Source: Bordetella sp. BOR01 | GTDB taxonomy: Bacteria; Pseudomonadota; Gammaproteobacteria; Burkholderiales; Burkholderiaceae_B | Reading direction: 5' to 3' | DNA: 64,000 nucleotides | NCBI RefSeq assembly: GCF_019218885.1 | Contig: NZ_JAHUWT010000005.1 | Span: 248,001-312,000, forward strand | Shown here: positions 2,358 through 19,466 of the stretch, one piece after another | Position numbering within the stretch: position 1 is the stretch's first letter | How the letters are laid out: every line of letters starts with the position of its first letter | Notes under the pieces: model-generated | The model's database searches: none | What the model was told of the DNA's origin: nothing | What the model saw: the letters and a program-made list of their open reading frames with translations, nothing else | Translations under genes and position numbers: made by a program

Positions 2358-3317
2358 TTATTGGCTTTTCTTCAGGCCCAGCTTGTCCAGCGCGGTGGCG
2401 ATGACAGCATCTTCCTTGGCGATGGTCTGGTCGAATGCGGCGTGTTCCAGGAAGACCGGCTGAAAGCCATTCTGCAGGCCGCGGCGCTTGAAGTCCTCGC
2501 TTTCGACGGTGGCGCGGATGGCCTGCTCGAGCCTGGCCCGCACATCGTCGGGCAACCCTTTGGGTGCCGCGACACCGCGCCACATGTCCGCCTTGAAGTC
2601 GTAGCCCTGTTCGATGGCAGTGGGCACCTGGGGAAACGTCGGATCGCGTTGCGCGGCCAGCACGCCCAGTACCTTCAGCGTGCCGGCCGCCACATGCGGC
2701 GCCACCGAGCCGGGCAGGGTCATCGAGGCGTCGATATAGCCCCCCAGCAGATTGGTGATCGAGATGGAAGACGCGAACGGAATGTGAGCCACCTCGACGC
2801 GCTGCTGTTCAAAAAAGGATTCAGAGGCAATCTGCAAATGGCTGCCGACGCCGGAATTGCCCACTTTCAGATCGCCGGGATGCTGCCTGGCGTAGGCCAG
2901 CAACTCGACCAGGTTGCTATAGGGGGCGTCGGCCCGTGCCACCAGGATCGGCGATTCGATGCTTACCTGCGCGATCGGCGTGAAAGCATGGTAGTCAAAC
3001 GGCAAGGTGCCGGAATGATAGGCGGTCGAGATCGAGTTGGAATTCATGATCAGCGCGTAGCCGTCTGGCGGCTGGTTCGCCACATAGCGATAGGCGACCG
3101 CGCCACCGGCGCCGGGCTTGTTCACGGCCAGCACGGGCTGGCCCAACTGGCGCGCCATGCCTTCGCCGAGCGCGCGCCCGACGACATCGGGCGCCGTGCC
3201 TGCCGCCCAGAGTATGGTCAGTTCAATGGGCTTGGCTGGAAACGTCTGGGCCTGGGCTATGCCCACGCCCAGCACGGCGCAGAACGCTGCGCGCCAGGCT
3301 GCCGGTGCGATTTTCAT
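2358..3317 (-). CDS. Bug/TctC-type tripartite tricarboxylate receptor
   Basis: 319 aa periplasmic solute-binding protein. I chose the ATG at 3317 because AAGGGGAG precedes it and the protein then begins with a Sec signal peptide (MKIAPAAWRAAFCAVLGVG, cleavage after AQA); the open frame extends further upstream without signal character. The mature protein has the family marks FPAKPIELTI, a PDGYALIM segment and a C-terminal PKGLPDD region. No TctA/TctB transporter genes are adjacent. The gene is first in an operon with the amidohydrolase and diverges from the aldehyde dehydrogenase operon across a region holding two GTACGTAC-type palindromes. The ligand is unknown, probably a carboxylate or related molecule. 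Confidence 0.92.
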   Translation of the reverse strand: MKIAPAAWRAAFCAVLGVGIAQAQTFPAKPIELTILWAAGTAPDVVGRALGEGMARQLGQPVLAVNKPGAGGAVAYRYVANQPPDGYALIMNSNSISTAYHSGTLPFDYHAFTPIAQVSIESPILVARADAPYSNLVELLAYARQHPGDLKVGNSGVGSHLQIASESFFEQQRVEVAHIPFASSISITNLLGGYIDASMTLPGSVAPHVAAGTLKVLGVLAAQRDPTFPQVPTAIEQGYDFKADMWRGVAAPKGLPDDVRARLEQAIRATVESEDFKRRGLQNGFQPVFLEHAAFDQTIAKEDAVIATALDKLGLKKSQ

Positions 3318-3550
3318 GTGCTTGCTCCCCTTGATGTGCTGCCGCATCGCGACGCGTCGACCACGTCGACGCATGATGCGGGCTGGCTGGAATCTTAAGA
3401 AGGTGGGGGGCATCCAACAATGCACCCGCGGAGCAAGTCAGCTTTGTGTGATCGGTAAAGATTGCCGGGCGGCGCGGCCGCGGCTTGTTCCTCGGCGGAA
3501 CCTTCTTGGTCGAGCACCGAGGCGAACTCGCCGTGCCTGCGTACGACATT

Positions 3551-3562
3551 AAGTACGTACAA
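3551..3562. promoter_or_regulatory. GntR-type operator, copy 1 (AAGTACGTACAA)
   Basis: Twelve-base palindrome with core GTACGTAC, one of six similar copies in the window. It is about 85 bp upstream of copy 2 and may serve the leftward Bug-amidohydrolase operon or allow looping. Assignment to the GntR protein encoded at 10078-10893 is inference. Confidence 0.6.
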
Positions 3563-3613
3563 AAAAAACAATAAGAAAATCGGGATTTCAAGAAATATCC
3601 CGCTAATTTACCC

Positions 3614-3642
3614 TTGACATCGCGGTCTTGGCATTTTAGTCT
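3614..3642 (+). promoter_or_regulatory. Probable promoter of the aldehyde dehydrogenase operon
   Basis: TTGACA at 3614-3619, a 17-bp spacer and TAGTCT at 3637-3642. The -35 is perfect and the -10 is weak. The palindrome at 3647-3658 begins four bases after the -10, covering the expected transcription start, which suits repression. Confidence 0.55.
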
Positions 3643-3646
3643 AAAG

Positions 3647-3658
3647 TTGTACGAACAA
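3647..3658. promoter_or_regulatory. GntR-type operator, copy 2 (TTGTACGAACAA)
   Basis: Near-perfect palindrome immediately downstream of the -10 box of the aldehyde dehydrogenase operon. It differs from the perfect copy at 11064-11075 by one base. Confidence 0.62.
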
Positions 3659-3741
3659 ATAAACATGGGTGTACGGTTTTCGGCCATCCGCTGCCAGCGG
3701 GTTGGCGGTATCGATAACCGGGCCTATTCACCGAGACAACC

Positions 3742-5238
3742 ATGCACACTGACACGCCATCTTCCCGGGTCTTCGACAACTACGTGGCAGGCAGGCCGTT
3801 GCCATCGGCAACGGGCCGTTCGTTCGCCAGCATCAATCCGACTACCGGTCGCGAATGGGGCCGGTTTGTCGATTCCACCCGGGACGAAGTCGACGCGGCG
3901 GTGCAGGCCGCCGCCGCGGCTTTGTCGGGGCCATGGGGCGCGGCCTCGCCCACGCGCCGGGGCAGGTTGCTGATGGCCTGGGGGGAAAAGATCGCCGCCC
4001 ATGCCGAAGGCATTGCCCGGCTCGAGTCGGCGCAGAACGGCAAGCTGTTTGCCGAGATGAAGGCGCAGGCCAATGTCGTGAAGGAATGGCTGTACTACTT
4101 CGGCGGCCTGGCCGACAAGATCGAGGGCCGCGTCATTCCCGTGGAACGCCCCAGCGTGTTGAATTACACGCTGCGCGAGCCTATAGGCGTGGTCGGCGTG
4201 ATCGTGCCGTGGAATTCGCCCACCTTTCTGTCCATCATGAGTTGCGCCCCGGCCATGGCTGCCGGCAACACCATTGTGCTCAAGCCGTCAGAGGTGACTT
4301 CCGCTTCGGCATTCGAGCTGGTCCGGCTGGCCGAAGAAGCCGGCATCCCGCCGGGGGTGCTGAATGTGGTGACGGGCGCGCGCGAAGCCGGCGAGGCGCT
4401 GGTCGATCATGAGCAGGTTGGCAAGATCTGCTTCACCGGCAGCGATGCGGCCGGCCGTGCCATCGCCGCGCGCGCGGGCGCCAGGCTGGCCAGTTGCACC
4501 CTGGAGCTGGGCGGCAAGAGCCCCAATATCGTGTTCCCGGATGCCCCGGTCGAGAATGCCGTGGTTGGCGTGCTGTCGGGCATTTTCGCGGCCGCGGGGC
4601 AGACCTGCATTGCCGGTTCGCGGGCATACATCCATGAAAGCCTTTACGAGCAGGTCGTTGACCGCCTGGTGCAGCGGGCTCGCGCCATCAGGCTGGGCGA
4701 CCCGCTGTCTGCGGACACGCAAATGGGGCCCGCGGCCACGGCGGCGCAACTGCAGAAGAACCAGGCCATGGTGGCCAGGGCAGTCGATAACGGGGGCGAG
4801 ATCCTGTATGGCGGCCAGCGGGCCAGCGTGCCGGGCTTTGAAGAAGGTTTCTTTTTCCAGCCCACCATCTTGCACCGCTTGAAGGCGGACAACCCGATCA
4901 TGCAGGAAGAAGTGTTCGGGCCCGTGCTGGCCGTGACGTCATTCCGCGACGAAGACGAAGTCCTGGCGCTGGCCAACGGCACCAAGTTCGGCCTGGCCGC
5001 CGGCGTATGGACGCGCGACCTGCGCCGCGCACACGGCATCGCCAGGCGCCTGCAGGCGGGTACCGTCTGGATCAACACCTACCGTGCCATGGCATTCAAC
5101 TCGCCGTTCGGCGGCTACAAGCAGAGCGGGATCGGGCGGGTGAACGGCATGGAATCGGTGGACCAGTTCTTGCAGACCAAGAGCGTCTGGTGTGAAACCA
5201 GCGACGAGATCCAGGATCCGTTCGTGCTGAAGGTCTGA
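3742..5238 (+). CDS. NAD(P)-dependent aldehyde dehydrogenase
   Basis: 498 aa, full length for the superfamily. It oxidises an aldehyde to its acid. Visible catalytic elements are N158 in VPWNSP, E255 in LELGGKS and the nucleophile C289 in GQTCIAG; the EEVFGPV and SPFGGYKQSG segments are also present. It is the first gene of a five-gene operon, with the ThDP enzyme starting 10 bp later. In this context its substrate is plausibly the aldehyde made by that decarboxylase, as benzaldehyde dehydrogenase follows benzoylformate decarboxylase in mandelate pathways. Family certain; substrate inferred only from neighbours. Confidence 0.95.
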   Translation: MHTDTPSSRVFDNYVAGRPLPSATGRSFASINPTTGREWGRFVDSTRDEVDAAVQAAAAALSGPWGAASPTRRGRLLMAWGEKIAAHAEGIARLESAQNGKLFAEMKAQANVVKEWLYYFGGLADKIEGRVIPVERPSVLNYTLREPIGVVGVIVPWNSPTFLSIMSCAPAMAAGNTIVLKPSEVTSASAFELVRLAEEAGIPPGVLNVVTGAREAGEALVDHEQVGKICFTGSDAAGRAIAARAGARLASCTLELGGKSPNIVFPDAPVENAVVGVLSGIFAAAGQTCIAGSRAYIHESLYEQVVDRLVQRARAIRLGDPLSADTQMGPAATAAQLQKNQAMVARAVDNGGEILYGGQRASVPGFEEGFFFQPTILHRLKADNPIMQEEVFGPVLAVTSFRDEDEVLALANGTKFGLAAGVWTRDLRRAHGIARRLQAGTVWINTYRAMAFNSPFGGYKQSGIGRVNGMESVDQFLQTKSVWCETSDEIQDPFVLKV

Positions 5239-5248
5239 GGTAGCGATC

Positions 5249-6871
5249 GTGGAAAACACAACGGTGGCGGACGTGATCGCCCAGGCGTGCGCGGCACATG
5301 GCGTGCGGCGGGCTTTCGGCGTGCCGGGCGGGGGCAGCTCGCTGGACATGATCGAGGCCTTCGATCGGCATGGCATCGCGTTTCAGCTTTGCCGCACCGA
5401 GACGGGGGCGGCGCTGATGGCGGCGGCAGACGCCGAGATTCGCCATGCGTTCGGCGTGGTGGTCACTACGCAGGGGCCCGGCACGGCCAGTGCCATGAAC
5501 GGCATCGCGCATGCGGCGCTGGATCGTGCGCCCGTGCTGTTCATCAGCGACGGCTGGGCGCCGGCGCGCGCCGCGTACGATACGCACCAGGTGTTCGACC
5601 AGCGCCTGATGGCCTCGACGGTGGTGAAAGCCAGCACGCGGCTGGACACCGATGACCCCGCCCGCGAACTGGCGGACCTGATCGGCGCAATGCGTTCACC
5701 GCCCTGGGGGCCGGTGCACCTGGAGCTGACCAGCGAGGCGGCCAGGCGCACGGTAGCCGTACCAACGTGCGCGTGCGCGCCCGCGGCGGCCACGGCCAGT
5801 GCTGTCGCCTCGGCGGCCAGCCATGGCGATGCGGCGCAATTGCTGAAAGACGCCAGGCGCCCCGTGCTGCTGGTGGGCCTGGAGGCGCGCGATGCCGGCG
5901 CGGCCAGCCAGGTCATGGCGCTGGCCGAGCGCCTGCGCTGCCCGGTACTCACGACCTACAAGGCCAAGGGCCTGGTCAGCGACGAATGCGGTTGGCTGGT
6001 CGGGCATTTCACCGGTGGCGCCGCTGAGCGCGAATGTGTCGATGGCGCGGATTTGATCGTGCTGTGCGGCCTGGATCCCGTGGAGCTGATCGGCAAGCCA
6101 TGGCCTTACCGTGCGCCCGTGATCGACGTGGCGCTGGCTGCGCACCCGGTGCACTACCTGCGGCCCGCGGCGGGCGCGTACGGACCGGTCGCGGCGGGAT
6201 TGCAGGCCTTGCTGGCGGTGGATGCCGGATCTGCCTGGCCGCCCGCCGAGGTCGCCGCGCTGCGTGCCGGCATGCTGGCGCGGCTGGCCTATCCCGGCTC
6301 GGGGGCCGGATTGTCTCCCCAGGATGTGGTCGAGACCGCCATGCGCGTCGCGGGTCCGGCGCGCCCGGCCATGACGGTGGACGCCGGGGCGCATATGTTC
6401 TCGGCCATGGCGTTCTGGCAGGCCCGCGCACCCGGCGGCGCGCTGATCTCGAATGGGCTGGCCACCATGGGCTATGCGCTGCCCGCTGCCATTGCCCGCT
6501 CGCTGCATTGTCCCGACGAGCAGGTCATTGCCTTTACCGGCGATGGCGGGCTGATGATGTGCGCGGGCGAATTGGCCACCGCCGCGCAGGCCGCGGGCAA
6601 GCTCTGCGTGGTGGTCTTCAACGACGCGGCGCTGTCGCTCATTGCCTTGAAGCAGCATGACCGTGGCATGCGCGACGCCGGCGTGTCATGGCCGCAAGCC
6701 GATTTCGCCGCGGTGGCGCGCGGCTTTGGCATGTTGGCGCATCGCGCCCATACACAGGCCGAGTACGAAGCGGCGCTGCGCCAGGCATTTCAGTGCGCAA
6801 GGCCTTGCCTGATCGATGTCCGCGTCGACCCGTCAGGCTACGGCAGGCAGGCCAAGGCATTGCGGGGCTAG
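5249..6871 (+). CDS. Thiamine-diphosphate-dependent decarboxylase/synthase
   Basis: 540 aa with the three-domain architecture of acetolactate synthase and benzoylformate decarboxylase. E51 in RTETGAA is the ThDP-activating glutamate, and the cofactor motif runs from GDG at 431-433 to the FND about 26 residues later. The start is GTG, preceded by a GAGG stretch that overlaps the end of the aldehyde dehydrogenase gene. Between an FMN-dependent 2-hydroxyacid dehydrogenase and an aldehyde dehydrogenase, a 2-oxoacid decarboxylase role is likelier than biosynthetic acetolactate synthesis, and no regulatory subunit gene is adjacent. That choice is inference. Confidence 0.88.
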   Translation: MENTTVADVIAQACAAHGVRRAFGVPGGGSSLDMIEAFDRHGIAFQLCRTETGAALMAAADAEIRHAFGVVVTTQGPGTASAMNGIAHAALDRAPVLFISDGWAPARAAYDTHQVFDQRLMASTVVKASTRLDTDDPARELADLIGAMRSPPWGPVHLELTSEAARRTVAVPTCACAPAAATASAVASAASHGDAAQLLKDARRPVLLVGLEARDAGAASQVMALAERLRCPVLTTYKAKGLVSDECGWLVGHFTGGAAERECVDGADLIVLCGLDPVELIGKPWPYRAPVIDVALAAHPVHYLRPAAGAYGPVAAGLQALLAVDAGSAWPPAEVAALRAGMLARLAYPGSGAGLSPQDVVETAMRVAGPARPAMTVDAGAHMFSAMAFWQARAPGGALISNGLATMGYALPAAIARSLHCPDEQVIAFTGDGGLMMCAGELATAAQAAGKLCVVVFNDAALSLIALKQHDRGMRDAGVSWPQADFAAVARGFGMLAHRAHTQAEYEAALRQAFQCARPCLIDVRVDPSGYGRQAKALRG

Positions 6872-6970: not shown

Positions 6971-7936
6971 ATGCAGTCCGCATTCCGTCTGGCCGTAATG
7001 GCCTTGCTGGCCTTGAATATTTCTACCGCGCACGCCGAAGCCACCTGGCCGACGCGTGCCGTGCGATGGATCGTGCCGTTCGGGGCCGGCGGTACCGCCG
7101 ACGCCGCCGCGCGCCATATCACGCAGAAACTGAGCGAGCGCTGGGGGCAGCAGATCGTCATCGACAACCGGCCGGGGGCGAATACCGCCATTGCCGCGGC
7201 CGAGGCGGCGCGCGCCAAGCCAGATGGCTACACCTTGTTCCAGCCCATGAATTCGACCTTGACCGTCAATCCGTTCGCGTTCTCGAAGCTGTCGTACGAC
7301 CCCCGGCGCGACTTCACGCCGATCGGCGTCATTGCCTCCGTGCCGCTGATCGTCGTGGCCAATGACACCTTGCCGGCCAAGACGCTGCAAGAGTTCGTCG
7401 CGCAGGCGAAGCAGCAGCCCGGCCGCCTGACCATGGGCGGCGGCGATGTCGGGGTCCAGCTGGCCGCCGAACGCTTCTTGCGCGATGCCGGTGTCGATGT
7501 CCAGTACGTGCCATACAAGACCGGCGCCGACGTCATGCGCGGCCTGCTCTCGGGCGAGATTCAAACGGGCCTGGATGGCGTGCCGGCCTACCCGCCATTC
7601 CTGAAATCCGGCAAGTTGCGCGCATTGGCCACCAATAGCGCGCGGCGCATTCCCTCGCTGCCGGACGTCCCCACCATGGGGGAGCTGGGTTTCAAGAATT
7701 CGGCGGCCCCGATGTGGCATGCGCTGATGGCGCCCGCGGGCCTGCCCAGGGCGATCCAGGAAAAAATTGCCGCCGACTTGCAGGCCGTATTGGCGATGCC
7801 CGATTTACGGGCCCGGATGGAAGAACTGGGCCTGGACCCGACCTGGATCGGAACCGACGATTTCGTCAAGCTGATTGCCACCGAATCCGCCCAGATGGGC
7901 CCGTTGGTGAAAGAACTGGGTATCAAACTGAACTGA
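6971..7936 (+). CDS. Bug/TctC-type tripartite tricarboxylate receptor
   Basis: 321 aa. The ATG is preceded by AAGGAGACACCC, a strong ribosome site, and the protein starts with a Sec signal peptide ending at about HAEA. Family segments ATWPTRAVRWIVPFGAGG and PDGYTLFQPMN are present, as is the C-terminal APAGLPRAIQ region. It lies within the operon between the ThDP enzyme and the SMP-30 lactonase, so the presumed ligand is a precursor fed into that route. No membrane subunits are nearby. Confidence 0.93.
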   Translation: MQSAFRLAVMALLALNISTAHAEATWPTRAVRWIVPFGAGGTADAAARHITQKLSERWGQQIVIDNRPGANTAIAAAEAARAKPDGYTLFQPMNSTLTVNPFAFSKLSYDPRRDFTPIGVIASVPLIVVANDTLPAKTLQEFVAQAKQQPGRLTMGGGDVGVQLAAERFLRDAGVDVQYVPYKTGADVMRGLLSGEIQTGLDGVPAYPPFLKSGKLRALATNSARRIPSLPDVPTMGELGFKNSAAPMWHALMAPAGLPRAIQEKIAADLQAVLAMPDLRARMEELGLDPTWIGTDDFVKLIATESAQMGPLVKELGIKLN

Positions 7937-7946
7937 GCCGAACGCC

Positions 7947-8882
7947 ATGTACGCACCTCCTCCTCAAAAGAAGTTGGAAGTCTTCGCTTCCATTCCGCAG
8001 CGCTTTCACATCAGCGGCAGGAAATCGAACTGGATCGACGTGCAATTGCACGGCGCCGACACTCCCGCTTTCCTGGAAGGGCCGGCCTTCGACGCGCACG
8101 GCAACCTTTGGGTCGTGGACATTCCCTGGGGCCGGCTGTTCAAGATCGACCGCCAGGGCGAGATCAGTTGCGAACTGGAATACGATGGCGAGCCCAACGG
8201 CCTGGCGTTTCATGCCGATGGCCGCGCGTTCATTGCCGACAACAAGAACGGCCTGATGGTGTTCGACCCGGCCAGGGGGACTGTCGAACCGTTCCTGGAC
8301 CGCGCCCTGGTGCAGCGCTTCAAGGGGCCGAACGACCTGGTCTTCGCGGGCAATGGGGACCTGTACTTCACCGACCAGGGGCAGACGGGCCACCACGACC
8401 CGACCGGCCGGCTGTACCGCCTGGCGGCGGATGGCCGGTTGGATTGCCTGCTGAACAATGTGCCCAGCCCGAACGGGCTGGTGCTGAACCTGGCCGAAGA
8501 CACCGTCTACCTGGCGGTTACGCGTGCCAATGCAATCTGGCGCGTGCCATTGGTGAAGAAGCACGGCACGGTCACCAAGGTGGGTACCTATATCCAGATG
8601 TCGGGCGGCGGCGGACCGGATGGCATGGCGCTGGGCGCCCATGGCGGCGTGGCCGTCTGTCATGTGGGCCTGGGCGCGGTCTGGATATTCGACGAGGTGG
8701 GCCAGCCGGTGCTGCGCCTGGATGCGCCCGCCAGCCGCATGACGACCAATTGCGCTTACGGCGGATCGGATTTACGGCGCCTGTATGTCACCGCGGGCCG
8801 TGAGATCCTGGTGGCCGAGGCCGACATGGCTGGCGCGCCGACTTGGGCGCAGCGCAGCGCGTCACCGGCCGTCGGCAAGTAG
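7947..8882 (+). CDS. SMP-30/gluconolactonase-family lactonase
   Basis: 311 aa six-bladed beta-propeller hydrolase that opens lactones to hydroxyacids using one divalent metal ion. E44 in FLEGPAFD, the asparagine in KGPNDLVF, the SPNGLVLN segment and the aspartate in GPDGMALG match the metal and active-site positions of the family. There is no signal peptide, so it acts in the cytoplasm. It starts 10 bp after the Bug gene and ends 8 bp before the hydroxyacid dehydrogenase. The order suggests that lactone opening supplies the dehydrogenase substrate. Confidence 0.9.
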   Translation: MYAPPPQKKLEVFASIPQRFHISGRKSNWIDVQLHGADTPAFLEGPAFDAHGNLWVVDIPWGRLFKIDRQGEISCELEYDGEPNGLAFHADGRAFIADNKNGLMVFDPARGTVEPFLDRALVQRFKGPNDLVFAGNGDLYFTDQGQTGHHDPTGRLYRLAADGRLDCLLNNVPSPNGLVLNLAEDTVYLAVTRANAIWRVPLVKKHGTVTKVGTYIQMSGGGGPDGMALGAHGGVAVCHVGLGAVWIFDEVGQPVLRLDAPASRMTTNCAYGGSDLRRLYVTAGREILVAEADMAGAPTWAQRSASPAVGK

Positions 8883-8890
8883 GAGCAAAC

Positions 8891-10054
8891 ATGGCCGACA
8901 AGATCCAGCGGTGCCTAAGCATCAGCGACCTGCAAGCTCGCGCCCGGCGCTATTTGCCGCGCGTGATATACGACTATCTCGAGGGCGGCGCGGACGACGA
9001 GGAATGCCTGGCCGAGAACCCCGCGCGCCTGCGGCGGCACAAGCTGCGCCCGCGATGCCTGGTGGACATATCCGAGCGGTCGCAGCAGGTGTCGGTGTTC
9101 GGCCGCACGTATCGTTCGCCGTTCGGCATCAGCCCCATGGGCATGTTGGGCATGGTGCGGCAAGAAGGCGACCTGGCGCTGGCGAAGGTGGCGGCGCAGT
9201 CGGGCATCCCCTTTATCCTGTCGGGCGCCAGCAATGCATCGATCGAGTCGGTGGCGCGCCACGCGCCGGGAAGCTGGCTGCAGTTCTATCCGTGCAAGGA
9301 CTTGGCAATCGAGCGCGATATCCTGGCCCGGGCCGCAGGCGCGGGTATCGAGACCTTGGTCATCGCGGTCGATGTGCCGCTGCATTCCAAGCGTGAGCGT
9401 AATATCCGCAGCGGCTGGGTGCGGCCGTACAAGCCATCGCCCGCCGTCATCCTGGAAGCACTGCGGCATCCGCTGTGGGTGGCGCGCTACCTGCGCCATG
9501 GCATACCGGTGATGGAGAACTTCCTGCCTTATGCGCCCGCGGGCATCGGTGCGCGCGAGCTGACCGGGTTCTATGCATCGCAAGTGCCGGCGCCGCACCA
9601 GTGGTCCATGATCGAGCGCTTGCGGCGCCAATGGAAGGGCAGCCTGGTCCTGAAGGGCATCCTGGCCGCCGATGATGCGCGGCTGGCAGCCGCGGCCGGC
9701 ATCGACGGGGTGATCGTGTCGAACCACGGCGGGCGCCAGCTGGACCGCAGCGTGGCGGCCATCGACGCGCTGCCCGAGGTGGTAGATGAGGTGGGCGCGC
9801 ACATGACGGTGATGTTCGACAGCGGAATACGCCGCGGCTCGGATATCGCCGTGGCGCTCAGCCTGGGCGCCCGGCTGTGTTTCGCGGGCCGGGCCGCGGC
9901 GTATGGGCTGGCCGCCTTCGGTGCTGCCGGCGCCCAGCGGGCGGTGGATATTCTGTGCACCGAACTGGACCTGACCCTGGGGCAGATCGGATGCCCCGAC
10001 GTGAACGCGCTGGGCCTCAAGTTTCTTTGGCAGGCGCGCGCCGGGCTACCCTGA
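8891..10054 (+). CDS. FMN-dependent alpha-hydroxyacid dehydrogenase (LldD/MdlB family)
   Basis: 387 aa TIM-barrel flavoenzyme that oxidises an (S)-2-hydroxyacid to a 2-oxoacid. The active-site base is H279 in VSNHGGRQLD; FMN-binding segments PFGISPMGM and MFDSGIRRGSD are present. The ATG at 8891 follows AGGAGCAAAC, and the frame upstream overlaps the previous gene without family similarity. It is the last gene of the operon, 23 bp from the convergent gntR gene. Lactate, mandelate or glycolate-type substrates are all possible. With the ThDP and aldehyde dehydrogenase genes it resembles the mandelate pathway. Confidence 0.92.
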   Translation: MADKIQRCLSISDLQARARRYLPRVIYDYLEGGADDEECLAENPARLRRHKLRPRCLVDISERSQQVSVFGRTYRSPFGISPMGMLGMVRQEGDLALAKVAAQSGIPFILSGASNASIESVARHAPGSWLQFYPCKDLAIERDILARAAGAGIETLVIAVDVPLHSKRERNIRSGWVRPYKPSPAVILEALRHPLWVARYLRHGIPVMENFLPYAPAGIGARELTGFYASQVPAPHQWSMIERLRRQWKGSLVLKGILAADDARLAAAAGIDGVIVSNHGGRQLDRSVAAIDALPEVVDEVGAHMTVMFDSGIRRGSDIAVALSLGARLCFAGRAAAYGLAAFGAAGAQRAVDILCTELDLTLGQIGCPDVNALGLKFLWQARAGLP

Positions 10055-11063: not shown

Positions 11064-11075
11064 TTGTACGTACAA
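11064..11075. promoter_or_regulatory. GntR-type operator, copy 4 (TTGTACGTACAA)
   Basis: Perfect 12-base palindrome, the best of the six copies. It begins five bases after TAGCAT (11053-11058), a possible -10 box of the cupin operon; no good -35 is seen. The position over the transcription start fits repression. Confidence 0.68.
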
Positions 11076-11667: not shown

Positions 11668-12636
11668 ATGTTTCGTCGAACTTTCCTGCGCGCTTCCGCG
11701 GCTGCGCTTGCCGCGATGGCCGCGCGGCCATCCTTTGCGCAACCCTATCCTTCGCGCCCGCTGACCATGTGGGTTCCCTATGCCGTGGGCGGTAACGGCG
11801 ACCTTACCGCCAGGCTGTTCGCCGACGCGCTGGGCAAGGCGCTGGGGCAGACCGTCATCGTAGGCAACAAGCCCGGTGCCGGCGGCGCGATAGGCGCCAT
11901 GCACGTCATCGGGTCGGCGCCCGACGGCTATACCCTGCTGTTCTCGGCGCCCAGCGTGTTTTCCGTGACTCCGCACCTGGTCAAGGTCAGCTACGGCACC
12001 GGCAGCATCCAGCCCGTGTGCCTGGTCAGCAAGACACCGCTGGTGCTGGTGGTGAAGAAGGGCAGCCGCTTCAAGTCGCTGGCCGATGTCGTGCAGGCGG
12101 CCAAGGCGCAGCCGGGGGCGATATCCATGGGCTATAGCGGCCTGGGCACCCCCAACCACCTGGCCATGCTGGATCTCGAGGCAGTGGGGCAGGTGCGGTT
12201 CAACGGCATCGCGTACAAAGGCTCCAGCCCCATGCTGCAGGACATGCTGGCCGGGCAGATCGAAGTTGCCGCCGACCAGGTATCCACATCCAAGCCGTAT
12301 ATCGAATCGGGCACGCTGATTCCGCTGGCGGTGTTTGGGCCGTTGCAGGCTGCTTTGCCAGGTATTCCGTCGGTGTCGTCGCTGGGGCCCGAACCCTTCG
12401 ATGTGACGACCTACCTGGGGGTTTCGGGGCCGGACAAGATGCCCGGCAACGTCATGCAGACCTTGCAGCAGGCCGCCAGCGCCGCGATCGAGAACGGCCG
12501 CTTCGTCGAAGGCATGAAGGCGATGGGCTCGTTCGTGCAATGGGGCGCATCGCAGGATTACGCACGCATCATGCACAAGGAAGACGATTTCATGCGCACG
12601 ATGGTGGCGGCCGGCCGTATCAAGGCGGAGTCGTGA
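11668..12636 (+). CDS. Bug/TctC-type receptor with Tat-like signal
   Basis: 322 aa. The N-terminus MFRRTFLRASAAAL carries a twin-arginine motif (RRTFLRA) before a hydrophobic stretch and a cleavage site near SFAQ, so Tat export is possible. Family segments PYPSRPLTMWVPYAVGG and PDGYTLLFSAP follow. It starts 14 bp after the cupin gene and ends 2 bp before the amidohydrolase gene. A second Bug gene is last in the same operon. The two are diverged paralogues, so they may bind different compounds. Confidence 0.92.
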   Translation: MFRRTFLRASAAALAAMAARPSFAQPYPSRPLTMWVPYAVGGNGDLTARLFADALGKALGQTVIVGNKPGAGGAIGAMHVIGSAPDGYTLLFSAPSVFSVTPHLVKVSYGTGSIQPVCLVSKTPLVLVVKKGSRFKSLADVVQAAKAQPGAISMGYSGLGTPNHLAMLDLEAVGQVRFNGIAYKGSSPMLQDMLAGQIEVAADQVSTSKPYIESGTLIPLAVFGPLQAALPGIPSVSSLGPEPFDVTTYLGVSGPDKMPGNVMQTLQQAASAAIENGRFVEGMKAMGSFVQWGASQDYARIMHKEDDFMRTMVAAGRIKAES

Positions 12637-12638
12637 CC

Positions 12639-13529
12639 ATGCCGCATTCCAGTGGCCGCGACAGGCTGGAACCGGATCCCGCGCCAGACGATGCGCCGCA
12701 TCCGCCACGTAGCTACACCTTGCCGGCCGGCGCCGTGGATACGCATGCGCACGTCATCGGCACGCAGTGGATAGAGCATCGCAGCTACACCCCGCATCCC
12801 GCGCCGCCGGCTGCCTACCTGAGCATGCTGGACGCCACGGGCATGTCCTACGGTGTCCTGATCCAGGTCAGCGTGCATGGCACCGACAACAGCCTGTTGC
12901 GCGATACCGTCAAGGCCAATCTCGATCGGCTGCGGGGCATTGCGGTGATTCCGCACGACCTGGGCCAGGCCGACCTGCGGGACCTGAAAGACGCCGGCAT
13001 CGTGGGGCTGCGCCTGAACACCACGACCGGCGGCGGCGTGGGCGTGGACGCACTGGCGGATTACGAGGCCATTTGCCGCGAGATGGGCTGGCACCTGCAG
13101 TTCCTGGTCAATGCGGAACAGTTGCCGGCGCTGGCGCCACGCATTGCGCGGTTGCGCGTGCCGGCCGTGTTCGACCACATGGGGTATGTGTCGCCAGACC
13201 TGGCCGGCACCGAAGCCGGGCATACCTTGCTGCAACTGGTGCGCGACGGTGCGTGGGTCAAGTTGTCGGGCGGATTCCGCATTTCGCTGGCGGCGCCGCC
13301 GTACCCGGATGTGATTCCGTTTGCCCGCGCGCTGGCCGAGGCCGCGCCGACCCGGTGCGTGTGGGGGTCGGACTGGCCGCATGTCAGCTTTGGGAAAACC
13401 ATGCCCAACACCGGCGATTTGCTGGACTTGCTGGGGCACTGCGTGCCGGATGCCGCGTTGCGCGATGCGGTCCTGGCCAACAATCCGCAGCGGCTATATG
13501 GATTTGCCGCCACTGGGAGCTCGCATTGA
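12639..13529 (+). CDS. Amidohydrolase, 2-pyrone-4,6-dicarboxylate lactonase-like
   Basis: 296 aa TIM-barrel hydrolase of the LigI-like group (COG3618 type). Visible active-site residues are H36/H38 in VDTHAHVIG, the histidine in FDHMGYV and D245 in WGSDWPHV. Relatives hydrolyse lactones of carboxylated rings or related lactones. The ATG lies two bases after the preceding Bug stop codon, and its own stop overlaps the TTG start of the next Bug gene. A paralogue of equal length lies at 48492, also next to a Bug gene. Confidence 0.88.
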   Translation: MPHSSGRDRLEPDPAPDDAPHPPRSYTLPAGAVDTHAHVIGTQWIEHRSYTPHPAPPAAYLSMLDATGMSYGVLIQVSVHGTDNSLLRDTVKANLDRLRGIAVIPHDLGQADLRDLKDAGIVGLRLNTTTGGGVGVDALADYEAICREMGWHLQFLVNAEQLPALAPRIARLRVPAVFDHMGYVSPDLAGTEAGHTLLQLVRDGAWVKLSGGFRISLAAPPYPDVIPFARALAEAAPTRCVWGSDWPHVSFGKTMPNTGDLLDLLGHCVPDAALRDAVLANNPQRLYGFAATGSSH

Positions 13530-14482
13530 AGACACTCATGCACATGTTGCTGTGCGGCGCGCTGCTGCTGGCGGGCGGGGCGGCGCAAGCAGGCAGCTTT
13601 CCATCCCAACCCATCAAGATCATCGTGGCGTTCGGGCCCGGCAGTGGCGGCGACATCCTGGCCCGCTTGCTGGCGCAGTACCTGCAACCCGAACTGAACA
13701 CTCCCATCGTGGTGGAAAACAAGGTGGGCGCATTGGGGCAGATCGCAACCAGCGCACTGGCGCGCGCCCCGGCCGACGGCTACACCTTGGGCATGGGCAG
13801 TTCGTCCACGCACTCCACCGCAGTGTTCCTGACCAAGAACCTGTCCTATGACCCCATCAAGGACTTTGCCGCGGTGGGCGGCCTGAACAACTACACCTTC
13901 GTCCTGCTGGTGCCCGCGGCTTCCCCTGCCACGACGCCGCAGCAGTTGGTGGAACAATTGCGGGCCAAGAACCAGGCGTTCTATGGCTATGGCAACGCGT
14001 CGGGCCGGGTGGGCGCGGCGCATTTCAACCGGCTGGCCAAACTCAATGCAACCGAGGTGGCGTACAAGAGTTCGCCCGACGCGATGACCGACCTGTCCGC
14101 GGGGCGCGTGGACTTTGTGTTCAGCGACTGGGGGTCTGCCCGGTCGTTCGTGGAAGGAGGGCGGCTGCGCGCGATCGGCGTCATGGCCGACGAGCGTTCG
14201 CCGGTACTGCCGGACCTGCCCGCCGTGGGCGAGGCGTATCCCGGCTTCAACTTCGCCAACTGGGGTGGCCTGATGGCGCCGGCCGGAACGCCGCCGGCCG
14301 TGATCGACACCTTGAATGCTGCCCTGATCAAGGTGCTGAAACAGCCGGAAGTCCAGGAACGCATGGTATCGCTGGGGCTGGAGGTCAAGCCCGGCAGCGC
14401 GCAAGACCTGGCAAAGCTGGTCGCGGATCAGCAGCAGGCCTGGGGGGCGGCGATACGCGAGGCGGGCATACGACCCGACTGA
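13526..14482 (+). CDS. Bug/TctC-type tripartite tricarboxylate receptor
   Basis: 318 aa with a Sec signal peptide (hydrophobic LLCGALLLAGGAA, cleavage near QAG). I favour the TTG start at 13526, which overlaps the preceding stop as TTGA and has GGGAG six bases upstream. The ATG at 13538 would sit 18 bases from that site. Family segments SFPSQPIKIIVAFGPG and ADGYTLGMG are present. It is the last gene of the cupin operon. No transporter membrane genes are adjacent. Confidence 0.9.
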   Translation: MKTLMHMLLCGALLLAGGAAQAGSFPSQPIKIIVAFGPGSGGDILARLLAQYLQPELNTPIVVENKVGALGQIATSALARAPADGYTLGMGSSSTHSTAVFLTKNLSYDPIKDFAAVGGLNNYTFVLLVPAASPATTPQQLVEQLRAKNQAFYGYGNASGRVGAAHFNRLAKLNATEVAYKSSPDAMTDLSAGRVDFVFSDWGSARSFVEGGRLRAIGVMADERSPVLPDLPAVGEAYPGFNFANWGGLMAPAGTPPAVIDTLNAALIKVLKQPEVQERMVSLGLEVKPGSAQDLAKLVADQQQAWGAAIREAGIRPD

Positions 14483-14548: not shown

Positions 14549-15667
14549 TCAGCGTGAAGCCGGCCCATCCAGCAAATCGCGATGCTGGTCCAGTGCCGGC
14601 GATTCCAGCCCGATAGCGGCCGGTTCATGCAGGAAGCGGATCGGGCTGCCGATATGCGGGCGGCCTTTCGCGTCGCGCAATACGATGCCGCGCGCCTGTA
14701 TCTGCGGGTCTTGCAGTGCCTGCGGCAGGGTGTTGACGCCGCCGAAGCACAGGTCCAGCGACTGCAGCCGGGTTTCCCATTCCGCGCGCGTGGCTTGCCG
14801 GAATGTGTCTTCAAGAAATTCCATCACCGGCGCCTGGTGGGGCCCCGGGCCCTGCAGGCACAGCGGTGCCAGGTCGGGGCGGTTCAATGCGCCCAGCAAG
14901 GCATGGACGAACTTGGGTTCCTGGCCCGCCAGCGCGATGTGGCCGCCATCGCGCGTTTGATAGATGCGGTAGAAGGCGCTGCCGCCTGTCGTCCTGTCCT
15001 GGCCGGGTTCGGGCGCCCGGCCCTGGGCAAAGGTGGAGCCCAGCACATTGCGCAGCGCCGCGACCATGCAGTCGGACATGGCGATATCGATGTAATCGCC
15101 CTTGCCGGTGGCCTGGCGGCGCAGCAGCGCCATCAATATGCCGGCCAGGCCTTGCAGCCCGCTCAACAGATCGGCGTAGGGCAGGTTGGGCATGGCGGGT
15201 TTCGCATCGGACCCTGTCGTGAGCATCAGCGCACCGGCCAGCGACTCGATGGCCAGGTCATGCGCGGGGCGATCGCGATACGGGCCATTCTGGCCGAATG
15301 CGCTGATAGAGCAGTACACCAGGCCGGCATTGCGCCGGGCCAGCGTCTGGTAGTCCACCCCCAGGCGCGCGGCGACCCCGGGCCGGAACGACTCGATGAA
15401 CACATCGGCGGAGTCCACCAGCCCCATCAGCGCCGCGCGGTCCGGTTCGCTTTTCAGATCCAGCGCAATGCTTTTTTTCCCGCGGTTGAGATTGCGGAAG
15501 AAGACGGTATGCGGGCCGTCCGACAGGCCGATGTGCCGGCCGGGGTCGCCCTCGCCGGGTTGTTCTATCTTGATGACCTCGGCGCCGTGATCGGCCAGTT
15601 CCAGCGATAGATACGGGCCCGGCAAGAAGTTCGACAGGTCCAGTACGCGCAGCCCCGATAATTTCAT
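14549..15667 (-). CDS. Class III (CaiB/BaiF) CoA-transferase, subunit or paralogue 1
   Basis: 372 aa. These enzymes move CoA between carboxylates through an aspartyl intermediate; the nucleophile is probably D137 in DRPAHDLAIES. The N-terminal GLRVLDLSNFLPGPY and the GKKSIALDLK segment are typical. Its ATG at 15667 overlaps the stop of the upstream CaiB-family gene (ATGA), so the pair is translationally coupled. The frame extends upstream inside that neighbour without family similarity. Adjacent CaiB pairs can form heteromers, as in benzylsuccinate and malate CoA-transferases; that is a possibility here. Confidence 0.92.
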   Translation of the reverse strand: MKLSGLRVLDLSNFLPGPYLSLELADHGAEVIKIEQPGEGDPGRHIGLSDGPHTVFFRNLNRGKKSIALDLKSEPDRAALMGLVDSADVFIESFRPGVAARLGVDYQTLARRNAGLVYCSISAFGQNGPYRDRPAHDLAIESLAGALMLTTGSDAKPAMPNLPYADLLSGLQGLAGILMALLRRQATGKGDYIDIAMSDCMVAALRNVLGSTFAQGRAPEPGQDRTTGGSAFYRIYQTRDGGHIALAGQEPKFVHALLGALNRPDLAPLCLQGPGPHQAPVMEFLEDTFRQATRAEWETRLQSLDLCFGGVNTLPQALQDPQIQARGIVLRDAKGRPHIGSPIRFLHEPAAIGLESPALDQHRDLLDGPASR

Positions 15668-16884
15668 CGCGGGTCCTCTTGGTCGGTGGCGATAAGGGCC
15701 GAAAGCCGGCCGTCTGTGTCGGCGCCCAGCGGTGAACACGCACGCAGCGCCGGACGGTGCCCGTTGAACTTCAAGGGGTTGGCCAGCACATGGAAATCGG
15801 GCTTGGCGGCGTGCTTGACGGTAGACAGCATGCCGCTTTCGTGGAAGAAGTCGGTCTGCAGCGCCTGGGCCAGCCCAAGCACCGGCGCAACCGGCAGCAC
15901 GCCTTCCAGCAACGATAGCCAGTGGCGGGTGGGGTGGCGCTTGAATTCGGCATCCAGCAGTTCGGTCAGGCGGTGGCGGTTCTGGTGGCGTGCCGCGGCG
16001 TCGGTGAATGCCGGCACGGTGGCCAGGTCTTGGCGTTGCAAGGCCTTCAGCAGTGCTTCCCAGAACTTCTGGGTCATGCACATGATGAAAATCCACCCGT
16101 CGGCGGTGGGAAAGGTCTGCACTGGTGTCAGCGAATAATGGCCGCTGCGCGGCTGGCGCTGCGAAAGATGCTTTTCATTGAGGAACCAGGTGGCCGTATA
16201 GCCGAGCTGGTGCAGGGTGACGTCATACAGGCTCGTGTCCACATCGCAGCCCTGGCCGGTCTCGCGCGCCCGCAACAGCGCGGAGAGCAGGCCGACGATC
16301 GACGTGATGCCGGTCATGTGGTCGACAATGGACGGCGCGCCGATACGGGCTGGCGGAGTATCGGGTTCGCCTGTCAGGTGCATGAGGCCGCTTTCGGCTT
16401 GCATCAGGTAGTCGTAGCCCGGCCACGAGGCGCGGCTATTGTCGCGGCCGTAAGCCGATATGTGCACGCAGACGATGGCGGGGTTTACCGCCGACAATGC
16501 GGCGTAGTCCAGCCCCAGCCTGGCGGGCTGGTCGCCGCGCAGGTTGTTCAGCACCACATCGGCTCCGCGCAGCAGTTCTTCGAAGGTGCGCCGGCCCTCG
16601 TCCGACTTGATATCCAGCGAGATGCTGTGCTTGTTGGTGTTCCAGCTCTGGAAATACTGGCTGTCGTCCTGGCCCAGCATGAAAGGCCCGGTTTGGCGCG
16701 AGGGGTCGCCGCGCGTGGCGGGGTTCTCGATCTTGAGGACTTCGGCGCCCAGGTGCGCCAGAAACATAGTGCCATATGGGCCGGCGCCGAACTGCTCGAC
16801 GGCGACGATGCGCACGCCCTGCAGCGGAAGATGGGCGGGGCGGGGCGCGGCTCGCGCGTCGGTATTGCCGCCTGCGGCGCTCAT
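15664..16884 (-). CDS. Class III (CaiB/BaiF) CoA-transferase, subunit or paralogue 2
   Basis: 406 aa, with about 20 extra N-terminal residues compared with its neighbour. The expected aspartate is D158 in WPGYDYLMQAESG. GVRIVAVEQFGAGPYG and KHSISLDIKSDEG match the family. The start at 16884 overlaps the acyl-CoA dehydrogenase stop as ATGA, making three coupled genes. It likely activates a carboxylic acid by CoA transfer so that the upstream dehydrogenase can act on it. Donor and acceptor are unknown. Confidence 0.92.
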   Translation of the reverse strand: MSAAGGNTDARAAPRPAHLPLQGVRIVAVEQFGAGPYGTMFLAHLGAEVLKIENPATRGDPSRQTGPFMLGQDDSQYFQSWNTNKHSISLDIKSDEGRRTFEELLRGADVVLNNLRGDQPARLGLDYAALSAVNPAIVCVHISAYGRDNSRASWPGYDYLMQAESGLMHLTGEPDTPPARIGAPSIVDHMTGITSIVGLLSALLRARETGQGCDVDTSLYDVTLHQLGYTATWFLNEKHLSQRQPRSGHYSLTPVQTFPTADGWIFIMCMTQKFWEALLKALQRQDLATVPAFTDAAARHQNRHRLTELLDAEFKRHPTRHWLSLLEGVLPVAPVLGLAQALQTDFFHESGMLSTVKHAAKPDFHVLANPLKFNGHRPALRACSPLGADTDGRLSALIATDQEDPR

Positions 16885-18059
16885 TGCGCAGGGTTCCTTT
16901 TTATCCATTGCTTCGAGATGATGATGCGCTGCATCTCGTTGGTGCCCTCGCCGATGCAAGTCAGGGGGGCGTCCCGGTAGAGCCGTTCGATGTCGTATTC
17001 CTTGGAATAGCCGTAGGCGCCGTGGATACGCATGGATTCCGTGCTGTTTTCCAGCGCCGCTTCCGAGGCGAAGTACTTTGCCATTCCGGCTTCCATGTCG
17101 CAGCGTTCGCCGCGGTCGAAGCTGGCGGCCGCATCGAGCGTGAGCAAGCGCGCGGCCCGCGCGCGGGTGGCCATCTCGCCCAGTTTCAGCGCAATGGCCT
17201 GGTGTTCGGCGATGGGCTTGCCGAAAGTCTTGCGCACTTGCGCGTATTCGGTGGCCAGTCGCAAGGCGCCTTCGGCGATGCCCACGCCGCGCGAGGCGAC
17301 GTTGATGCGGCCCAGTTCCAGGCCGCCCGTGGCCTGGTAAAAGCCCTGGCCCTCGACGCCGCCGATCAAGTGGTCGGCCGGCAAGCGGTAGTCGTCGGCG
17401 ACCAGCTCGCCGCTATCGATGGCTTTGTAGCCCAGTTTGGGCAGCTTGCGGCCGCTGGAGAAGCCGGGCCCCTTGGGGGCAATGAACAGGCTGATGCCTT
17501 TGTGGCGGGGTTGGGCCTGCGGGTCTGTCTTGACCAGAAGGGCAAAGCAAGAGCCTTCTACCGCATTGGTGATCCAGGTTTTCGTGCCATTGATGACGTA
17601 GTGGTCGCCATCGCGCCGCGCCGTCATGCGGATGCCTTGCAGGTCGGTGCCGGCGTCCGGTTCCGTGAGCGCCAGGCCGCCGCGGATTTCTCCGGACGCC
17701 AGACGGGGCAGCCATTGCTGTTTTTGTTGGCCGGTGCCGAATTTCTCGATGGCCAGTGCCAGCATCAGGTGGGAATTGAAGATGCCGGTGACTGCCATCC
17801 AGACCGATGAAATGCGCATCACGATCTTGGCATAGGTGCTGGCGGGCAGCCCCAGGCCTCCATAGTCAGTGCTGACCGTCGCGCCGAACAGGCCGAGCGC
17901 CTTCATTTCTTCGACGATATGCGCGGGGTAGCGATCGGCGTGGTCGAACTCTCGTACGACTTCGGGGGTGAGCGAGCGTTGGACCCAGCGGTCGATCGCC
18001 GAGAGAAGTTCACTTTCGTCCTGCGCCGAGATGGTGCGTGGCTGGCGGCCGGCTTCCAT
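16881..18059 (-). CDS. Acyl-CoA dehydrogenase
   Basis: 392 aa FAD enzyme that introduces a double bond into an acyl-CoA. The probable catalytic base is E371 in GEGTNEMQRIIIS; FAD/substrate segments ALTEPDAGTDLQ and KTWITNA are present. I chose the ATG at 18059 because GAGGTAAGAAA precedes it; a longer version would start at 18092 inside the operator palindrome. It is the first gene of the leftward operon with the two CaiB-type transferases. The promoter TTGACT-17-AATACT abuts operator copy 5. Glutaryl- or short-chain acyl-CoA-type substrates are possible. Confidence 0.93.
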   Translation of the reverse strand: MEAGRQPRTISAQDESELLSAIDRWVQRSLTPEVVREFDHADRYPAHIVEEMKALGLFGATVSTDYGGLGLPASTYAKIVMRISSVWMAVTGIFNSHLMLALAIEKFGTGQQKQQWLPRLASGEIRGGLALTEPDAGTDLQGIRMTARRDGDHYVINGTKTWITNAVEGSCFALLVKTDPQAQPRHKGISLFIAPKGPGFSSGRKLPKLGYKAIDSGELVADDYRLPADHLIGGVEGQGFYQATGGLELGRINVASRGVGIAEGALRLATEYAQVRKTFGKPIAEHQAIALKLGEMATRARAARLLTLDAAASFDRGERCDMEAGMAKYFASEAALENSTESMRIHGAYGYSKEYDIERLYRDAPLTCIGEGTNEMQRIIISKQWIKRNPAQ

Positions 18060-18080
18060 TTTCTTACCTCGATATTTAAT

Positions 18081-18092
18081 AAGTACGTACAA
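18081..18092. promoter_or_regulatory. GntR-type operator, copy 5 (AAGTACGTACAA)
   Basis: Palindrome 22 bp upstream of the acyl-CoA dehydrogenase start codon. On the minus strand it reads TTGTACGTACTT and begins at the end of the -10 box. Confidence 0.65.
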
Positions 18093-18120
18093 GTATTCCA
18101 GTAGTTTCCGGCAGAGTCAA
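18092..18120 (-). promoter_or_regulatory. Promoter of the acyl-CoA dehydrogenase operon
   Basis: On the minus strand, TTGACT (18120-18115), a 17-bp spacer and AATACT (18097-18092). Operator copy 5 follows directly, over the expected transcription start. Confidence 0.6.
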
Positions 18121-18165
18121 CAGCATATATTCGGGCTTTTTGGCGGTATTTTCTTATCTGATTGC

Positions 18166-18191
18166 TATACTTGAATTAAATATACGTACAA
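18166..18191 (+). promoter_or_regulatory. Promoter -10 and GntR-type operator, copy 6
   Basis: TATACT at 18166-18171 is a good -10 box, without a clear -35. ATATACGTACAA at 18180-18191 retains the right half of the palindrome found in the other copies. The GTG of the rightward CoA-transferase gene is at 18210. Confidence 0.55.
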
Positions 18192-18209
18192 CTTTCAAGG
18201 AACTTTTCC

Positions 18210-19466
18210 GTGAAGAAGCTGGCCCACCTGAGCGAATTCCTGGAAAATATCGGGCTGCGCGAATGCATCGCCGTCCATTCGGCTGCCGCGCATCCCACCG
18301 TCCTGGCCGGCCAACTCGCCGAGTCATCCCATCTGCTGCGCGGACGCGTGGTTCATTCGCTGCTGCCCTACGGCCCGGTGCCTTATGCACAGGTGCCCGC
18401 ACGCGATCACCTGGAACTATCGACGTTTCTACCCGGTGCGGGCCTGCGCGCCGCCCTGGATGCAGGCCGCCTGCATGTCATGCGCCAGCCGCTATCCGAA
18501 GCCCCGCACTCGTTCAACGAGGCGAATCCGGTCGGTGCCGTGCTGCTGCGGGTGTCGCCGCCGGATGACACAGGCAAAGTGAGCCTGGGCGTGGCGGTCG
18601 ATTACATGCCCGCCGCCTTGCAGGCCGCGCGGCGGGTCGTGGCCGAGATCGATCCCGCCATGCCCCGGACGGCCGGCGATGGCTGGCTGAGCGCCGCCCG
18701 CATCGACGCATTTGTCGATGCCGTGGACGGGCCCCACGAGGTTGCGCCGGGGCAGCCGGATGCGATCGACGAGGCGATCGCCAGCCACGTGGCGGGTTTA
18801 TTGACAGACGGGGCGGTGCTGCAACTGGGGGTGGGGTCGTTGCCCGACCAGGTGCTGGCCAAGCTGGGCCATTTGAAGCACCTGGGGCTGCACACCGGCA
18901 TCATCGGCGATGGGGCTCGCGCGCTGATCGAGCGCGGCATCATCGATAACAGCACCAAAGAGGTATGCCCGGGGGTGTGCGTGGCCACCATGGCCTTGGG
19001 CACCCGCGCTTTCTATGCATTCATGGACCGCAATCCGGCCATCGAACTGCATCCTTGCTCGATGACACATGGCAAGCAGGTGCTGCGGCGATTGGGGCGC
19101 CTGCACGCCATCAACGCGGCCTTGCAGGTGGATCTTCACGGGCGCGTCAACGCCGAATGGGCGGGGTCGCGGCAGGTTTCGGCACCCGGCGGCCTGCCGG
19201 ATTTCTCGCGCGCCGCCGCGGCACTTGCCGGCGGGCGCAGCATCATTGCCCTGCGCGCCCGCGACCGCAAGGGCGGCAGCGCCATCGTGCCCGAACTGCC
19301 GCCCGGGCGGCCATGTTCGCTGCAGCCCGCAGAGGTCGACTGCTACGTCACCGAGTATGGCGTAGCCGCCGTGCGCGGATGTTCTGCCGATGCCCGGCGC
19401 AAGGCGCTGATTGCCATTGCCCATCCCGGGCACCGGGATACGTTGATGCGCTGTGGCGGGACCTAG
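18210..19466 (+). CDS. Acetyl-CoA hydrolase/transferase-family protein (4-hydroxybutyrate CoA-transferase-like)
   Basis: 418 aa, starting with GTG after CAAGGAAC. It has the two-domain layout of the acetyl-CoA hydrolase/4-hydroxybutyrate CoA-transferase family, with LQLGVGSLPDQVLAKLG, HTGIIGDGARALIERG and the segment INAALQVDLHGRVNAEW near the catalytic region. It is divergent from the acyl-CoA dehydrogenase operon and shares its control region. Its role would be CoA exchange between acetyl-CoA (or another donor) and a pathway acid. Its stop overlaps the convergent alcohol dehydrogenase stop in CTAG. Confidence 0.88.
   Translation: MKKLAHLSEFLENIGLRECIAVHSAAAHPTVLAGQLAESSHLLRGRVVHSLLPYGPVPYAQVPARDHLELSTFLPGAGLRAALDAGRLHVMRQPLSEAPHSFNEANPVGAVLLRVSPPDDTGKVSLGVAVDYMPAALQAARRVVAEIDPAMPRTAGDGWLSAARIDAFVDAVDGPHEVAPGQPDAIDEAIASHVAGLLTDGAVLQLGVGSLPDQVLAKLGHLKHLGLHTGIIGDGARALIERGIIDNSTKEVCPGVCVATMALGTRAFYAFMDRNPAIELHPCSMTHGKQVLRRLGRLHAINAALQVDLHGRVNAEWAGSRQVSAPGGLPDFSRAAAALAGGRSIIALRARDRKGGSAIVPELPPGRPCSLQPAEVDCYVTEYGVAAVRGCSADARRKALIAIAHPGHRDTLMRCGGT

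Follow-up and report, generated by a model that had tools for sequence, protein, structure and literature searches.

Six putative operator palindromes mark a candidate UTRA-type GntR regulon of acid-degrading genes in Bordetella

The 64,000-nt stretch of Bordetella sp. BOR01 DNA analysed here (hereafter the window, from a genome, G000, of 6.18 Mb) contains a 17-kb region in which genes for acid degradation flank a gntR gene, whose product we call R1, and in which six copies of a short palindrome recur at 3551, 3647, 10999, 11064, 18081 and 18180 (Table 1). Among the products of these genes are an aldehyde dehydrogenase (ALDH), a thiamine diphosphate (ThDP)-dependent enzyme, a flavin mononucleotide (FMN)-dependent 2-hydroxyacid dehydrogenase (FMNdh), an acyl-coenzyme A (CoA) dehydrogenase (AcDH), the CoA-transferase-type proteins CaiB1 and CaiB2, and four proteins, Bug1 to Bug4, that we take to belong to the Bug family. 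Reading from sequence, we consider it very probable that the palindromes are the operators of R1 acting as a UTRA/HutC-type repressor of these neighbouring genes. The features that carry this interpretation were computed directly: the sites themselves and how rare they are, the conservation of these sites at promoters that are orthologous or rearranged, and the identity of R1 with the arabinose regulator AraR at four contact residues.

The six copies had been proposed in a first-pass annotation of the DNA, and all six were recovered, in excess of what chance predicts. The form given there, WTGTWCGWACAA, is matched exactly at 3647, 10999 and 11064 and with one mismatch at 3551, 18081 and 18180. 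Its title word, the 8-mer GTACGTAC, fits three of the six copies exactly (at 3553, 11066 and 18083, against an expectation of 0.16), while the other three lack the exact 8-mer. At least one intact CGTACAA half is found in every copy, and GT-N4-AC is present in five of the six candidate sites, with AT-N4-AC instead at 18180. With up to two mismatches, the window holds 23 oriented matches compared with 6.14 ± 3.13 in shuffled sequence (maximum 16). With their lowest score of 19.0 as the threshold, a matrix built from the six copies retrieves only these six from the 64 kb and none from the reversed window; leave-one-out scores of the copies range from 17.2 to 21.2. The next-best scores, at 21839 (14.5), 38035 (13.7) and 10780 (12.2, inside gntR), are background because the best score in the reversed window reaches 15.8, in agreement with the earlier remark that the window has no comparable copies elsewhere. 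The near-copy at 10780 was discarded on this score, and near-copies within the gntR genes of two related genomes, G156 and G053, are positioned otherwise (+28 against +102).

A whole-genome scan, proposed as a check on the earlier annotation, found near-perfect copies to be few: the covering pattern WWRTWCGTACAW occurs at 11 distinct places in the genome, six of them in this cluster, with one match in the reversed control. The five further places comprise two in the C23 cluster of a second UTRA gntR (R2, below), two that fall within open reading frames (ORFs) of the mechanical list (C11:242111 and C23:1077426) and were set aside, and one intergenic place near another UTRA gene (C11:313008). 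The last, also set aside, lies between AMP-ligase-like and Bug-like ORFs, named by eye, and the UTRA gene downstream of the ligase has the helix ARSTVR.

Table 1 Genes, operator copies and promoters of the 17-kb region, with conservation in aligned relatives
Feature	Coordinates	Strand	Setting, basis or conservation
Amidohydrolase (Amidohydro_1)	953..2353	-	Perhaps co-transcribed with Bug1, by spacing; regulon membership weak
Bug1, tctC-like periplasmic binding protein	2358..3317	-	ORF and translation
Operator copy 1, AAGTACGTACAA	3551..3562		Between Bug1 and ALDH; kept in G171 (as TAGTACGTACAA) and G156
ALDH promoter TTGACA-N17-TAGTCT	3614..3642	+	-35 invariant, -10 TARTCT in 3/3 aligned genomes
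Operator copy 2, TTGTACGAACAA	3647..3658		4 bp past TAGTCT -10 box; invariant in 3/3
ALDH, opens first + operon	3742..5238	+	PF00171
ThDP-dependent enzyme, acetolactate synthase/2-oxoacid decarboxylase type	5249..6871	+	
Bug2	6971..7936	+	ORF and translation
SMP-30/gluconolactonase-like lactonase	7947..8882	+	PF08450
FMNdh	8891..10054	+	Best PDB match (S)-mandelate dehydrogenase 6bfg
gntR (R1), GntR winged helix and UTRA, helix SRHTVR	10078..10893	-	PF00392, PF07702
Operator copy 3, ATGTTCGTACAA	10999..11010		105 bp upstream of gntR start codon; identical 12-mer in G171, G156, G053, and before Bug3 in G070
Operator copy 4, TTGTACGTACAA, perfect palindrome	11064..11075		56 bp upstream of cupin start codon; TTGTACGTACAA in G171, G156; TTGTACGGACAA in G053
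Cupin protein, opens second + operon	11132..11653	+	PF07883
Bug3	11668..12636	+	ORF and translation
Amidohydro_2 lactonase-like hydrolase	12639..13529	+	Sole NCBIfam match 4-sulfomuconolactone hydrolase, below cut-off
Bug4	13538..14482	+	ORF and translation
CaiB1, family III CoA-transferase type	14549..15667	-	
CaiB2, family III CoA-transferase type	15664..16884	-	
AcDH, most conserved enzyme of the regulon	16881..18059	-	
Operator copy 5, AAGTACGTACAA	18081..18092		One-base overlap with AcDH promoter -10 box; GTACGTACAA core kept in 4/4
AcDH promoter TTGACT-N17-AATACT	18092..18120	-	TTGAC and AATACT kept in 4/4
Operator copy 6, ATATACGTACAA	18180..18191		18 bp upstream of acetyl-CoA hydrolase/transferase start codon; ATACGTACAACTT invariant in 4/4
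Acetyl-CoA hydrolase/transferase family protein	18210..19466	+	Not found in G053; remnant in G171

Three copies had been described as lying within five bases of a -10 box. This stands for 3647 and 18081, both in conserved arrangements, while the -35/-10 boxes near 11064 are weak (8/12). Across three genomes the ALDH promoter conserves its TTGACA -35 box, its TARTCT -10 box and TCTAAAGTTGTACGAACAAATAA while the spacer has diverged, and across four genomes TTGAC and AATACTTGTACGTAC (gene-strand reading) are invariant at the AcDH promoter. Because the operator lies at or just past the -10 box of these two promoters, the arrangement fits a repressor. The TAGTCT box of the ALDH promoter scored under the -10 threshold of one promoter tool. 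A fourth copy, 18180, had been said to lie eight bases from a -10 box: a TATACT box is seen there by eye but is absent from a scan that requires a paired -35 and occurs in two of four aligned rows, so that the -10 evidence is weak here as well. The 18180 operator is itself retained even where the acetyl-CoA hydrolase/transferase gene was not found (G053) or is a remnant (G171).

Relatives of R1 were collected from Bordetella petrii MY10 and BT 1 9.2, Bordetella genomosp. 7, Variovorax, Pseudomonas insulae, alphaproteobacteria and others; G171, G156 and G053 are of the same genus as the window. All six sites recur in G171 and G156. G053 retains four sites; no ALDH operon was found next to its gntR, and the site pair of that operon is missing. 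The operons are rearranged in G070 and in Variovorax (L032), where sites stand before Bug4/ALDH, Bug3 or cupin, CitE and AcDH units; the sites thus track the rearranged operons and support a GntR regulon. Pseudomonas insulae (L033) has a site with at most two mismatches close to gntR or AcDH, as has every one of L034 and L036-L041 (regulators 45-49% identical to R1), and in G176 (48% identical) such sites occur only about 6 kb from gntR. The neighbourhoods of the R1 relatives (G171, G156, G053, G070, G176 and L032-L041), 361 kb in all, hold 21 matrix matches, and 364 kb around 19 partial relatives that are alike mostly in the helix-turn-helix (L044-L062) hold none, with none in either reversed set. 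Among the targets, AcDH and CaiB2, together with CaiB1, are the best conserved. Several units thus share one operator word that is conserved in relatives, although of the five transcription units originally placed under the sites that of 3551 (Bug1-amidohydrolase) is weakly placed. The linkage had also been said not to show in gene order alone, yet gene order in relatives reveals it too.

R1 itself combines an N-terminal GntR winged helix (PF00392, 84.5 bits, cut-off 27) with a C-terminal UTRA domain (PF07702, 38.2 bits, cut-off 23.8, profile positions 47-141 of 141), which bears out the HutC/UTRA-type assignment made earlier. Its DNA-binding domain aligns without gaps over 65 residues with AraR of Bacillus subtilis (PDB 4EGY), with 27 identities, and Arg-63, His-64, Gln-83 and Gly-84 of AraR, all four of its listed base-specific contacts, are identical in R1. 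The AraR family has a sugar-binding C-terminal domain; R1 was not filed as a member because its C-terminal domain is UTRA, and its targets are different. In the literature used (PMC4494728, PMC12290011, PMC4218819 and PMC6449761), AraR responds to arabinose and its published operator consensus is At(T/A)tGTaCGTAcaa(A/T)T, the core of which, tGTaCGTAcaa, is the core of the R1 sites. The same literature gives most HutC sites as having 4 nt between GT and AC, with the consensus NyGTMTAKACNy. R1 resembles the HutC subfamily in its domains, in this GT/AC spacing and in the double sites of its divergons, but its putative operator is centred on CG, whereas the quoted HutC consensus is centred on TA.

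The R1 helix SRHTVR is shared by R2, the product of a UTRA gntR at C23:567760-568560 of the same genome, which neighbours CaiB, CitE, HMGL-like and CaiB genes (L078, G000:C23:561000-577000, about 4425-9813). We compared helix and site across 53 regulators, namely R1 and R2 with their relatives plus the remaining UTRA matches of the BOR01 genome, after removing duplicates (L035, L042, L091, L098 and a second R2 copy); L044-L062, L030 and L031 lay outside this comparison. A site with at most two mismatches within 1.5 kb accompanies 26 of the 31 regulators with the helix SRHT[VI]R versus 1 of the 22 others (3/31 and 0/22 in the reversed-sequence control), and at one mismatch or fewer the counts are 22/31 versus 0/22. 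Among the 19 UTRA matches of the BOR01 genome, R1 and R2 are the only two with SRHT[VI]R and also the only two with a site of at most one mismatch within 1.5 kb. A different perfect palindrome, ATGTTCGAACAT, lies at L094 position 2308 (G000:C22, near 450314), near a UTRA gene with the helix SRYCVR, and is perhaps a variant operator word.

Several observations weigh against assigning the word to R1 in this way. A loose genome search (TTGTACGWACAA, two mismatches) returned 275 oriented matches against 283 in the reversed control, and the signal is therefore confined to near-perfect copies. Distinct WWRTWCGTACAW places number 11 in G171 (6 in the cluster), 11 in G156 (6), 3 in G053 (2) and 8 in G070 (2), all with R1, and 1 in G081, 2 in G123, 3 in G141, 7 in G015 (which has R2) and 9 in G103 among genus genomes without an R1 match. 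The reversed controls, counted as oriented matches, are 5, 4, 6, 8, 1, 1, 4, 2 and 4 in the same order (G171, G156, G053, G070, G081, G123, G141, G015, G103), and G053, G070 and G141 do not exceed theirs. The count in G103, which has no R1 or R2 match at the thresholds used, does not sit well with a single regulator for the word, which has further users or has arisen by chance in places. In the helix comparison, five SRHT[VI]R regulators (L032, G176, L027, L029 and L110) have no site with at most two mismatches within 1.5 kb, L032 by distance only (sites about 4 kb off); the reversed control yields three chance matches among 31; and the P value of 4e-9 overstates independence because the rows are related by descent. 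Within the window, 3551 has only weak (8/12) promoter candidates, one 4 bp off on the + strand and the others 31-70 bp off on the Bug1 strand, the Bug1 start codon is 233 bp away, and the genes beyond the site differ in G171 and G156, with no conserved target. The promoter scans found no promoter on the gntR strand. If the copies had arisen by chance, or were palindromes of no common function in intergenic DNA rich in A+T, the flat loose search would agree, yet the strict pattern places 6 of its 11 genomic places in this cluster, the copies are conserved at orthologous promoters, and the promoter footprints already contradict this explanation, which we regard as extremely improbable.

A further point on the same side is that R2 could plausibly bind the R1 sites, as judged from its helix, its similar sites and the three of four AraR base-contact residues it keeps. 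The sites of R2 itself, ATGTACGTACAA at C23:567661 and 570801, lie ahead of R2 and where a CaiB gene starts, and they score 21.1 in the R1 matrix, higher than five of the six R1 sites; 11 of the 12 R2 matches scanned (that of BOR01 counted) have a site of at most two mismatches within the locus, and G171, G156 and G015 carry a similarly spaced pair. The word, which the first-pass annotation had tied to R1, is not private to it, because R2 shares both helix and operator, as do most R2 relatives. A two-regulator network, in which R2 also binds the six operators and joins this cluster with the CaiB-CitE-R2-HMGL-CaiB cluster, is nevertheless a possibility we rate as rather unlikely, given that R2 has Pro in place of the Gln of R1 and AraR at a listed contact position, that R1 and R2 fall in separate tree groups, and that G053 has R1 and its sites while R2 was not found at the threshold used. 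Similarly doubtful is a co-action of paired sites on one promoter, by looping of the DNA or by dimers bound next to each other, with 3551 as an auxiliary operator of the ALDH promoter. The distance within a pair hardly varies (in three genomes 96, 97 and 97 bp for the ALDH sites, and 65 bp in 4/4 for the gntR-cupin sites), the only divergent candidate at G156 site 11200 is a 125-residue ORF (10781-11158) of uncertain reality, and Suvorova 2015 describes cooperative pairs of constant spacing in HutC divergons; but each site of the AcDH/acetyl-CoA hydrolase pair lies 18-21 bp from its own start codon, G070 has just one site of at most two mismatches between these genes, and the 125-residue ORF may be real.

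For R1 as a local repressor, we infer binding, repression, effector, operon extents and pathway order as follows. Without inducer, an R1 dimer would occupy the palindromes and keep out RNA polymerase, since the operator borders on the -10 box or start point or overlaps it, and an organic-acid effector in the UTRA domain would free R1 from DNA. The regulon would comprise ALDH-ThDP enzyme-Bug2-SMP30-FMNdh, cupin-Bug3-amidohydrolase-Bug4, AcDH-CaiB2-CaiB1, the acetyl-CoA hydrolase/transferase gene, gntR itself by autoregulation and, less surely, Bug1-amidohydrolase. Its reactions may run from a lactone or 2-hydroxyacid through 2-oxoacid, aldehyde and acid to acyl-CoA and enoyl-CoA. Four catabolic groups had been joined earlier into one pathway; their co-regulation by one operator word is supported, whereas a single pathway is an interpretation.

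For the core we consider a dicarboxylate route of C5 type (methylsuccinate-like), or a paralogue of such a route, likely; the front end (lactonase-like proteins, FMNdh, ThDP enzyme and ALDH) could supply the acid. The itaconate/methylsuccinate degradation cluster, ich-mcd-msi-ict-ccl in Goenner et al. 2025 (PMC12290011), likewise combines an AcDH with a CaiB-type CoA-transferase, and MaoC, PrpD and CitE of the relatives complete its parts list. MaoC joins AcDH and CaiB in eight R1-relative loci (L032, L033, L034, L036-L039 and G070), PrpD occurs in L034, L036 and L039, and CitE in L032. The L033 MaoC, the only one scored against NCBIfam, is nearest RipB/Ich (238.4 bits, below the cut-off of 340), and the Variovorax CitE nearest RipC/Ccl (155.5 bits, below 375). 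The window differs in having two CaiB genes and in that MaoC, PrpD and CitE were not found within the 17 kb; tblastn with MaoC and CitE queries gave no match in the window at 1e-8, and MaoC was not found in L040, G171, G156, G053 or G176 (L035 and L041 lay outside this check). Other PrpD-like, CaiB-like and HMGL-like matches lie at 39224-40516, 30503-31735, 28155-29000 and 23411-24598 of the window, none with a site at the matrix threshold.

Elsewhere in the genome, at C11:280-293k, lies a full-type gene set that has a UTRA gene of its own and an AcDH 65% identical to that of the window, and the window cluster is therefore best seen as a paralogous, specialised relative of the full-type itaconate/methylsuccinate set. 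This other set (L119, G000:C11:277000-293000) comprises MaoC, a TRAP-type transporter (by eye), PrpD, AcDH, CaiB and CitE, with the UTRA helix SRFTVR, and contains no GT..AC site within three mismatches of TTGTACGTACAA except TTGTCCAGACAA at L119:3262. Two other assignments were rejected. A mandelate pathway as such would suit FMNdh and its best PDB match, but acetolactate synthases are the closer kin of the ThDP enzyme and the two CaiB proteins do not fit. For CaiB2 as a benzylsuccinate CoA-transferase, the 9fn0 subunits score 100.4 and 92.8 bits, whereas formyl-CoA-type transferases reach 182.6.

The candidate regulon, which computation supports well, is ordinary in kind and useful in detail. 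Separate annotations (four Bug-like, two lactonase-like, a mandelate-dehydrogenase-like protein, a ThDP enzyme and two CaiB) become one testable co-regulated unit, and the pairing of the helix SRHT[VI]R with TTGTACGTACAA suggests a rule for assigning operators to UTRA regulators, with the caution that two regulators of one cell may read the same word. More speculatively, the proteobacterial SRHT[VI]R UTRA group may share this CG-centred word, read in an AraR-like manner, with R1 and R2 cross-wiring two CoA-transferase clusters in this genome, G171 and G156, which have both paralogues, and with R1 placing, ahead of a paralogous methylsuccinate-like route, a front end that leads from 2-hydroxyacid through 2-oxoacid and aldehyde to acid, for a substrate not described so far; we offer this combined picture tentatively. 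A literature search, mostly of titles and abstract openings, turned up no description of this regulon, which is not proof of its absence from print. The full operator string reportedly also occurs in a Geobacillus expression toolbox paper.

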